Shown piece after piece: positions 12,323 through 16,104 of a stretch of DNA of 28,746 nt. Position 1 is the first letter of the stretch; the number at the start of each line of letters is the position of its first letter. The stretch is from a virus. Location: positions 1 to 28,746 of the IMG/VR virus record IMGVR_UViG_3300040811_000833; one strand, 5' to 3'. The translations under genes and the position numbers were made by a program. A model generated the notes under the pieces. That model was not told the DNA's origin. It saw only the letters and a list, made by a program, of their open reading frames with translations, and made no database searches.

Positions 12323-12417
12323 TGGTGTCTAAAACGCAAAATAAGCGTCATACAAGCGTTTTTATAGGTAATACGATGTATGACATTAAATATAACATAA
12401 GAGAGGAAATAATATGA
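12322..12417 (+). CDS. Possible 31-aa coupled miniprotein
   Basis: ATG 12322 overlaps the previous stop (TAATG) and its TGA overlaps the next start (ATGA at 12414), so a complete 31-aa frame bridges the gap exactly: MVSKTQNKRHTSVFIGNTMY then DIKYNIREEII. Double coupling fits the style of neighbouring genes. Against it, the frame is short, it contains a hairpin with a T run (12331-12363), and composition is ordinary. It could merely carry ribosomes across the gap. Confidence 0.35.
   Translation: MVSKTQNKRHTSVFIGNTMYDIKYNIREEII
12331..12363 (+). terminator. Weak hairpin with T run
   Basis: AAAACGC (12331-12337) pairs with GCGTTTT (12356-12362) over an 18-base loop and T residues follow. This could be a leaky terminator between fibre genes, but it lies inside a possible coupled miniORF. 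Confidence 0.35.
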
Positions 12418-13427: not shown

Positions 13428-13459
13428 TACAATATAGACTAAATAAGAGTATGGCACAT

Positions 13460-13885
13460 ATGAAAAGAGATCCTATAAATGATTGGAGCAAAACGATTAG
13501 CACAACTATTCGTATGAGCAAACAAGCACCAATCAAAAGACAAAAAGCATTCAAATATAGTGTTCACAAAGGCTTATCCGACAAGCAATTGAGAGAAAGC
13601 GTTGAACAAGAACAACTAATTGGATATTGGATACGTGATAAGGGCATGAAACACTCTGATTTTGTGGGACACCCTTATATAGATGATGTCATCATGTTAA
13701 TCAACATAAGAGACTCTGTTTGGAATATGCTAAACAAATCAGAACAAGCGGTTTGGGGAGCGTATTGGAATCAAGTCTATCACAAAAGGCACAAACTCAA
13801 AAACAAGGCACTAATTAAGTTTGAAAAAATCATTTCACAGGCACTAGCAAGACACAAAATACAGGCTTTAAGACAGAACCCTTAA
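13460..13885 (+). CDS. Hypothetical basic helical protein
   Basis: ATG 13460 is preferred to ATG 13451 because AAGAG (13445-13449) sits ten bases before it but only one base before the earlier ATG. The product (about 141 aa, MKRDPINDWSKTISTTIRMS...) is basic and mainly helical, with 'HPYIDDVIMLINIRDSVWNM', 'SEQAVWGAYWNQVYHKRHKL' and a Lys/Arg-rich C-terminus. It is driven by a strong host-type promoter and immediately followed by a large structured RNA, so it may be a partner of that RNA; this is only a guess from position and charge. No family is recognised. Confidence 0.65.
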   Translation: MKRDPINDWSKTISTTIRMSKQAPIKRQKAFKYSVHKGLSDKQLRESVEQEQLIGYWIRDKGMKHSDFVGHPYIDDVIMLINIRDSVWNMLNKSEQAVWGAYWNQVYHKRHKLKNKALIKFEKIISQALARHKIQALRQNP

Positions 13886-13888
13886 AAA

Positions 13889-14345
13889 AAGGATCAAGAT
13901 AATGACGGTAAAGGGTCCTTCGTTGCTGAACAGGTTTTCTGCTGTTCAGAATAACAACGGTGCCACGTTCGCCCGCAAGGGTGCGAGTTAGACATAGCCA
14001 AACTTCTCGCTTAAAGGATACAGAAAATCGTTTGCCCTAGAGATAGGGACAAGAGTCCAAGATTTGGATTTGGAGCACGGTGGCAAGTGTAGTGAGCACT
14101 TTTTTTTGTGCGGAAACTACATTTGCCGTCGTATGACTTCAAGTCCAAGTTGAAATAATCACTTTTAAAAGAAAATGTAAATCACGCAAGTGATTTACAG
14201 ATGAACGTAGTTCATCTACAAACATATCATAACAATACCACTTGGAGTTTGAACGATAGTCGTTTCTAGTGACATAGGAATAGTTCTGACTAAATAATGT
14301 TGTGGATGGCACTGACGCCAAATATCATAAAAAGTGCCATTTTTA
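13889..14345 (+). ncRNA. Large structured noncoding RNA candidate
   Basis: No coding frame fits this 410-nt gap, but it folds densely. Pairings seen include: GACGGTAAA (13904-13912) with TTTGCCGTC (14122-14130, one G-U); CTGAACAG (13926-13933) with CTGTTCAG (13942-13949), extended by CGTTG/CAACG; TGCCAC (13961-13966) with GTGGCA (14080-14085); CGCCC-GCAA-GGGTG (13970-13983); GCGAG/CTCGC (13983-14010); CCCTA-GAGA-TAGGG (14035-14048); TCCAA/TTGGA (14056-14068); TGTAGT/ACTACA (14088-14121); a 10-bp stem with a GCAA loop (14176-14199); AGATGAAC/GTTCATCT (14199-14217); and TCCAAGT/ACTTGGA (14144-14246). Three loops are GNRA type. A 5' hairpin AAGGATC/GGTCCTT (13889-13920) crosses the long-range stem. 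A terminator ends it. Known large phage RNAs (GOLLD, ROOL, T-large) are possible relatives. Confidence 0.75.
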
Positions 14346-14347
14346 TT
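14305..14347 (+). terminator. Intrinsic terminator of the structured RNA
   Basis: ATGGCACT (14306-14313) pairs perfectly with AGTGCCAT (14333-14340), followed by TTTTATT. It lies at the 3' end of the structured RNA and upstream of the methyltransferase ATG at 14393, so reading that gene from ATG 14297 would mean translating through a terminator. Confidence 0.7.
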
Positions 14348-14392
14348 CCTAAATGGATAGGTGCCATTCACACTCAATCGCAAAGACACACA

Positions 14393-14917
14393 ATGGCAAA
14401 ACACTACGAAGACTGGCATACACTATTTCCTAATTCGGGCAAGGGCAAAGAGTTTCCTTGGATGCGTGATACACTACTGCGATTCAACCCCGAATCAGTT
14501 TTAGATTATGGATGTGGCAAGGGTGGCACAGCAGACTACATAGAAAGCACCACACACTTTAAGGTTGACCGTTACGATCCAGGCTATCAACCCTACAGCC
14601 TAAAGCCAACTAAAACCTATGACTTTGTGTATTCAACGGATGTGTTTGAACACATAGAACTGGAGGATGTGGGCCCAGCAATACAATACATAAACACACT
14701 GACCACACGCTATCACGCACACATTATAGACTTGGATCCAGCGAGAAAACACCTGCCAGATGGACGCAACGCACACGTTACACTACTGGATGAAGCAGAG
14801 TGGCTAAACACATTCAATCAGGTGTGCGAGGTTGTGGACTACACTACACAGGGCTATGAGGACAAATATCTACCTCAAAGAACGAGATTACACGTGGTAT
14901 GTCTAGCACACTCATAG
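14393..14917 (+). CDS. Class I SAM-dependent methyltransferase
   Basis: The start is set at ATG 14393 (MAKHYEDWHTLFPNSGKGKE), downstream of the terminator; an in-frame ATG at 14297 would add 32 atypical residues. Neither has a clear ribosome binding site. The 174-aa product has motif I 'VLDYGCGKGGTADYI' (about residues 35-49), an acidic position after the second strand (VDRYDPGY), and 'DFVYSTDVFEHIELEDV', the usual motif after strand 4 of the Rossmann methyltransferase fold, followed by 'HAHIIDLDP'. The substrate is unknown; the next gene is a glycosyltransferase overlapping by 19 nt, so glycan or nucleotide-sugar modification is likely. Confidence 0.75.
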   Translation: MAKHYEDWHTLFPNSGKGKEFPWMRDTLLRFNPESVLDYGCGKGGTADYIESTTHFKVDRYDPGYQPYSLKPTKTYDFVYSTDVFEHIELEDVGPAIQYINTLTTRYHAHIIDLDPARKHLPDGRNAHVTLLDEAEWLNTFNQVCEVVDYTTQGYEDKYLPQRTRLHVVCLAHS

Positions 14918-15930: not shown

Positions 15931-15960
15931 GGTTGACATCCTAGCAAAAGGTGTTATAAT
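15922..15960 (+). promoter_or_regulatory. Perfect sigma70 promoter with operator-like inverted repeat
   Basis: TTGACA (15933-15938) and TATAAT (15955-15960) are both exact consensus with a 16-bp spacer. An 8-bp inverted repeat, ACACCTTT (15922-15929) and AAAGGTGT (15947-15954), brackets the -35 box and abuts the -10 box, a likely repressor site. Confidence 0.85.
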
Positions 15961-16063: not shown

Positions 16064-16104
16064 GGTATACCATGGTTGACAGGGTGGATGGATGGTGTTA
16101 TAAT
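16064..16104 (+). promoter_or_regulatory. Second perfect sigma70 promoter
   Basis: TTGACA (16076-16081) and TATAAT (16099-16104) are exact consensus with the optimal 17-bp spacer. Like the first promoter it reads GGTTGACA...GGTGTTATAAT, showing duplication. The palindromes GGTATACC (16064-16071) and CCATGG (16070-16075) lie just upstream, and ACCAT/ATGGT bracket the -35. Confidence 0.85.

Follow-up and report, generated by a model that had tools for sequence, protein, structure and literature searches.

An uncultured aquatic phage carries a structured noncoding RNA of about 265 nt that belongs to a previously uncatalogued family, absent from Rfam. The RNA lies on the plus strand at positions 13885–14150 of a virus record (IMG/VR IMGVR_UViG_3300040811_000833), the full 28,746 nt of which is referred to here as the window. 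Its core fold is preserved by matched mutations in about 20 other phages, and we regard the family and its pseudoknot as real with near certainty. As to function, we favor, at a probability of about 0.5, a late trans-acting RNA or RNP that would be released from a gene transcript or would be its stable 3′ part.

The RNA begins a gap (13886–14392) that contains no ORF of note, as a first-pass annotation made from the sequence had claimed. The upstream ORF ends at 13885, and the downstream methyltransferase ORF starts with the ATG at 14393; tail genes flank the RNA on one side and sugar/methyl-transferase genes on the other. The phage capsid is 64% identical to that of DSL-LC06 (OR003941), the nearest named phage of the lineage, which represents the proposed family Nanhuiviridae (PMC10611076), and is about 47% identical to those of Pelagibacter phages such as HTVC026P. 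No comparable gap follows the tail genes of related Pelagibacter phages. Near-identical phage contigs (L002/L085 and L003/L084) break off inside or just before the RNA (window ~13969 and ~13815), perhaps owing to strain-to-strain variation of the region. ARAGORN predicted neither tRNA nor tmRNA in the window, and a tmRNA or tRNA-like identity was rejected on this ground.

The 457 nt initially delimited as the RNA (13889–14345) fold at −145.9 kcal/mol, compared with −107.2 ± 5.5 kcal/mol for dinucleotide shuffles (z −7.0, 0/100), and the core alone yields z −5.8. Thus, the dense structure noted earlier folds far better than shuffles, and the reading as a large structured noncoding RNA was right and is now backed by covariation, but the extent was overestimated: the conserved RNA ends near 14150. 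A conserved coding frame, named at the outset as the observation that would speak against an RNA, was not found, as no plus-strand ORF of at least 60 aa lies within the core and the upstream frames stop before the first hairpin (P1), in P1 or in P2. A recoding signal (readthrough or frameshift) was ruled out, since the stop codon is not at a fixed distance from P1 but ranges from −19 to +60, and a group I or II intron was rejected because Rfam gave no match and the upstream ORF stops before, in or just after P1.

Divergent copies of the RNA in L004, L008, L095/L093 and L011 were detected by blastn against loci fetched by their neighboring genes. Further copies, in L121, L128, L133, L145, L151, L154, L174, L176, L177, L178 and L179, came from pattern searches and from using the conserved gene at 12414 as query, and a search by the small upstream protein added L194, L197, L198, L202 and L203. 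Two other matches, L123 and L124, look like chance matches and were not accepted as copies. RNAalifold placed 27 pairs in the 5′ half of eight A-type sequences, 20 of them changed on both sides, and no shuffle reached the covariation score of this alignment. From these eight sequences we built the covariance model (R1) that the first-pass annotation had proposed, and its pairings are conserved. R1 finds a single copy in the window (13885–14015, 131 bits), corresponding to the 5′ half of the core. It also finds L174, L176, L177, L194, L197 and L198, none of which was used in building it, with E values of 5e-8 to 8e-18 (the first three elsewhere put at ~1e-8 to 1e-10); B-type copies score E 0.001–0.16. 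Among 19 R1 matches, whose alignment was fitted to R1 and favors the R1 structure, 26 of the 27 pairs show two-sided changes and 91.6% of pair cells are standard; the covariation score of these 19 sequences is 0.776, against 0.200 for shuffles and no more than 0.158 when partners are slid.

The 5′ part of the core consists of successive hairpins. P1 (13889–13895/13914–13920), the loop of which holds a strand designated X, has two-sided changes at 7/7 pairs and 94.7% of cells paired. P2 (13921–13959) comprises two helices, 13921–13925/13955–13959 and 13926–13933/13942–13949, with two-sided changes at all pairs of both. Its loop reads CUCCUCC in L095, L178 and L179, and an anti-Shine-Dalgarno mimic was considered there and rejected, being absent from the window and L008. 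P3 (13971–13982) carries the GNRA loop GCAA, and P4 (13983–14010; 88.4% of cells paired) has the most conserved loop, TANACATAGNCAAAC. P5 (14035–14048) is capped by the GNRA loop GAGA; of 11 A-type sequences scanned, 8 have GAGA, GGAA or GTAA at this site. Across homologues, the P3 loop appears as GCAA, GCGA or GUAA and the P5 loop as GAGA, GGAA or GUAA. All three GNRA loops described earlier are present; two are in the core, where they recur at the same site, while the third (14186–14189) belongs to a simple hairpin downstream.

A nine-pair helix between 13904–13912 and 14122–14130, also described earlier, is present with one G-U pair and proved to be a pseudoknot strongly supported by homologues. 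Here, strand X (GACGGTAAA, 13904–13912) inside P1 pairs with strand Z (TTTGCCGTCGT, 14122–14132), which immediately precedes a 3′ tail, GACU in most copies. Because the MAFFT alignment misregistered X by one base, duplex energies rather than column counts were used to test the pseudoknot. In the swap test, X was taken as the whole P1 loop, with the P1 arms picked by eye, and Z was set to the 13 nt immediately 5′ of the tail; cognate X:Z duplexes averaged −10.2 kcal/mol against −5.6 kcal/mol when swapped, with 0/20,000 permutations as low. The initial X:Z swap test likewise gave 0/20,000. The definitions of X and Z were fixed for the 19-sequence swap test and for a test on four later-found homologues. 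Z is the best partner of the P1 loop in the whole RNA in 15 of the 19 sequences, and in each of the four later homologues Z comes out top among more than 200 windows. In L008 one window beats Z, and X:Z is weak in L133, L145 and L179. The paired strands covary as GACGGCUAA/UUAGCCGUC (L095), GACGACUA/UAGUCGUC (L151), GGGAUAAA/UUUGUCCC (L174), GGGGUAA/UUUGCCCC (L177), AGAACG/CGUUCU (L010), AGCACG/CGUGCU (L138) and AACACG/CGUGUU (DSL-LC06).

The 3′ part of the core forms a rod of P7, a helix Y:Z and P6. Strand Y (14076–14087) is the local partner of Z and is complementary to it in every A- and B-type copy tested (swap test 0/20,000). P7, which lies outside Y:Z and is very strongly supported, joins 14059–14074 to 14136–14150 (mean −16.3 vs −7.8 kcal/mol, 0/20,000), its segments, like those of the initial X:Z, Y:Z and W:Y swap tests, having been chosen after complementarity was seen. 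P6 (14089–14120) consists of GUAG/CUAC and GCAC/GUGC around a U8 loop (14100–14107), and a run of 7–9 T recurs at the loop position in most A- and B-type copies. An A7 run before P1 (13884–13890) is complementary to the U8 loop, and long A runs before P1 accompany U runs in several copies; L151 has no U run. The previously described inner helix, in which strand W (13961–13966) pairs with 14080–14085 inside Y, is present as described and clear in the window and L008, but it is partial elsewhere and homologue support is weak (186/20,000 permutations). Since X and Y are both kept complementary to Z, the RNA can adopt two mutually exclusive folds: pairing of X with Z gives a pseudoknot, in which W:Y is possible, and pairing of Y with Z gives a closed rod.

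The Rfam covariance search suggested in the first-pass annotation covered the window, 27 other loci and the DSL-LC06 genome and yielded no family at gathering score, and a search around the core up to E 10 returned chance matches only (best E 0.54). No published description of the RNA was found in the literature, which was searched with partial coverage. By blastn, three family members detected no RNA copy in 50,697 named phages. The P4 motif gave three matches in bacterial and archaeal genomes, about the chance level by estimate, with no sign of a cellular version. DSL-LC06 (L182) has a divergent D-type copy, unannotated in that genome, in a gap at ~747–1050; its P1-loop pseudoknot is alike, and P1 and the pseudoknot are the only parts recognizably shared with the window RNA.

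Past the core, two simple hairpins (14176–14216; GCAA loop and GATGAACGTAGTTCATC) possibly mark the 3′ border of the RNA; paired hairpins likewise follow it in L005, L145, L151 and L153. A conserved GTTTGARCGATAG occurs ~100 nt past the RNA (window ~14240–14265; L005, L009, L121, L198, L202), and short AACGNAGTT-type hairpins occur in clusters in this region. Farther downstream, a separate element (14291–14372, plus strand), also seen in relatives, precedes the methyltransferase gene and consists of a TAAATA box at 14291 and an outer stem, 14301–14312/14361–14372. The 8-bp terminator assigned to the RNA does exist as a stem (14306–14313/14333–14340) followed by T5. Its loop, however, is 19 nt long, the stem forms the inner part of this separate element, and the nearest homologues keep the stem (14306–14340) without the T run; it is therefore probably not the terminator of the RNA. 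Elements of this type also occur in L005, L006, L010, L011, L012, L145, L151, L162 and DSL-LC06 (~1634–1730), with TAAATA, a long outer stem a few nucleotides later and often an inner TGCCATT, often just before a methyltransferase gene.

A near-consensus promoter was thought to precede the RNA, but our scan found no sigma-70-like plus-strand site in 13700–13889, and the nearest upstream box is TAAATA at 13440–13445 (plus strand). TAAATA resembles the T4-type late promoter core TATAAATA. The motif is depleted in the window overall (13 found vs 33 expected). Its ten plus-strand sites are at 641, 1416, 2354, 12387, 13249, 13440, 14291, 19031, 22503 and 27540; nine are wholly noncoding, although noncoding sequence makes up 12% of bases (p 6e-8), and lie 11–202 nt before a gene. 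TAAATA is found upstream of the RNA in 21 of 22 relatives, the nearest copy being 59–539 nt before P1. Together the boxes resemble a set of T4-type late promoters within a genome of siphophage-like character; no late sigma gene was recognized. Since a small protein gene and the RNA lie between the 13440 and 14291 boxes, the two probably constitute one late unit with the 13440 box as its probable promoter. Elsewhere, an 870-nt gap contains two perfect sigma-70 promoters (15933–15960 and 16076–16104; TTGACA, 16–17 nt, TATAAT) and, on the opposite strand, an 11/12 site (15879–15851); this gap is a probable early control region.

The small gene (13451–13885, plus strand) encodes a 144-aa protein of what we call the EQEQLIGYW family, to which no Pfam or PHROG family corresponds. 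AlphaFold2 predicts an all-helical protein (mean pLDDT 76), a structure search with the model matched only uncharacterized phage proteins and no solved relative, and tblastn against named phages returned nothing. Wherever an A-type copy extends far enough to judge, a gene of this one family comes before the RNA, in some cases with its end overlapping the RNA. The pairing is kept in L176, L177 and L179 despite different neighbors, and in L179 the pair is oriented opposite to the tail genes. A search with the small protein yielded 14 loci, and the RNA is present in all 11 that run past the gene. L202 joins an A-type protein to a B-type RNA. In A and B types the stop codon lies at −19 to +60 relative to P1, so that the ORF end shifts by ~80 nt. 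Other RNA types at the equivalent locus follow unrelated small proteins, and the link between protein and RNA may therefore be positional. We put the chance that the neighboring protein is the partner of the RNA somewhat short of even.

We propose that transcription from the 13440 TAAATA box would cover the small gene and the RNA as a single late unit, that the RNA would be released from this transcript or persist as its stable 3′ part, and that it would work in trans during late infection, probably in complex with the small protein as an RNP. The two folds may represent assembly or binding states of the RNA: the rod would form first from neighboring strands, and X would open it into the pseudoknot on meeting the partner. 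Action in trans as such stands at even odds or slightly above. The gene after the RNA varies, being the methyltransferase gene in the window and genes of 129, 90 and 148 aa in L004, L095 and L146, respectively; trans action is favored over cis action because the downstream gene differs and a TAAATA box often intervenes.

The position of the RNA, starting near the stop codon or overlapping the ORF end, is also what would be expected of a cis-acting 3′ UTR element that protects or autoregulates the small-gene mRNA, perhaps via its own protein. This is unlikely but the best placed of the alternatives, as the RNA types track small-protein families and gene and RNA share one transcription unit. However, the size, GNRA loops, pseudoknot and two folds are more than mRNA protection requires, and the mobility of the ORF end relative to P1 implies that the RNA, not the ORF end, is constrained. 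The two mutually exclusive and conserved pairings could instead constitute an attenuator-like cis switch, with X:Z plus W:Y against Y:Z setting transcription or translation of downstream genes and a short AUG-started frame in X serving as the leader. An ATG is indeed present at X in most A- and B-type copies, but X lacks an AUG in L174, L176, L177 and the D type, and the rod is not directly followed by a T-run stem. The downstream gene is not constant either, and in many copies transcription restarts at a TAAATA box ahead of the next gene; we thus consider such a switch improbable. A riboswitch or attenuator would call for a constant downstream gene or function, and the downstream genes differ. 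A packaging or virion-assembly RNA in the manner of phi29 pRNA, in which loop–strand pairing joins copies, would suit the late region adjoining the tail genes and an X that could pair with its own Z or that of another copy (the letters vary while complementarity stays), but it is very improbable, because the RNA is away from the terminase gene in the complete relative DSL-LC06 and the gap is absent in related Pelagibacter phages, so that packaging in the wider lineage is independent of the RNA.

Equivalent gaps after homologues of the gene at 12414 are filled by other RNA-like sequences (types C, F and E) in L141, L147, L152, L153, L130, L146, L157 and L009, and another occurs in L115 (4000–4290). 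Several share the motifs GGNAAAGNNNAGAGTCC and CCTRCTTCC, and each is behind a different small ORF; the F-type ORF matches Pfam QSregVF_b and, weakly, ExoX-like_C. Compared with shuffles, the F-type gaps fold better (z −2.6 to −4.2), the D-type gaps are not clearly better (z −0.6 to −1.8), C is mixed and E is not better. We treat groups C, D, E and F as candidates and do not claim them as proven members of the RNA family. It is conceivable, though doubtful, that the locus is a hypervariable cassette site where aquatic relatives of this phage have one of at least five families of small proteins, every family coming with a pseudoknotted RNA type of its own (A/B, C, D, F and others). If so, it would represent an undescribed kind of phage RNP module in which an RNA switches between two folds.

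Comparison with known RNAs places the proposed late trans-acting RNA among several systems without identifying it with any. Like the omega-RNA/HEARO of IscB and TnpB, it is a structured RNA at the 3′ end of an ORF, either overlapping that end or lying behind it, and is associated with the encoded protein. Unlike omega-RNA, it accompanies a protein of ~107–161 aa predicted to be helical, and it has no guide-like variable 3′ end, since its 3′ arm pairs back; an omega-RNA was rejected because no RuvC/HNH nuclease domain was found in the adjacent small protein. With phi29 pRNA it shares a phage origin and loop–strand pairing, possibly intermolecular here, but it is away from the terminase gene and differs in size and fold. 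GOLLD is often longer than 800 nt and found near tRNA islands, and ROOL is ~660 nt long (Nature 2025, PMC12286853); a homo-oligomeric cage is a further hallmark of both. The likeness to GOLLD and ROOL suggested in the first-pass annotation stands only as a matter of class, that of structured phage RNAs with function open: GOLLD, a phage RNA, has an elaborate covarying fold that is conserved in its 3′ part and more variable elsewhere, and ROOL is a phage/prophage RNA with pseudoknots. Identity with either was rejected, because the core is ~265 nt and far shorter, lies below the Rfam gathering score and is away from tRNA genes, with none in the window; it differs from ROOL also in genome place and from GOLLD in the small protein gene attached to it. 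Large structured phage RNAs are few and unexplained, and the window RNA joins them, suggesting that Rfam lacks entire RNA families carried by uncultured aquatic phages. At ~265 nt it is small enough for probing and cryo-EM, its competing helices are testable by compensatory mutation, and in its relatives it comes with a candidate protein partner, a feature that GOLLD and ROOL lack.
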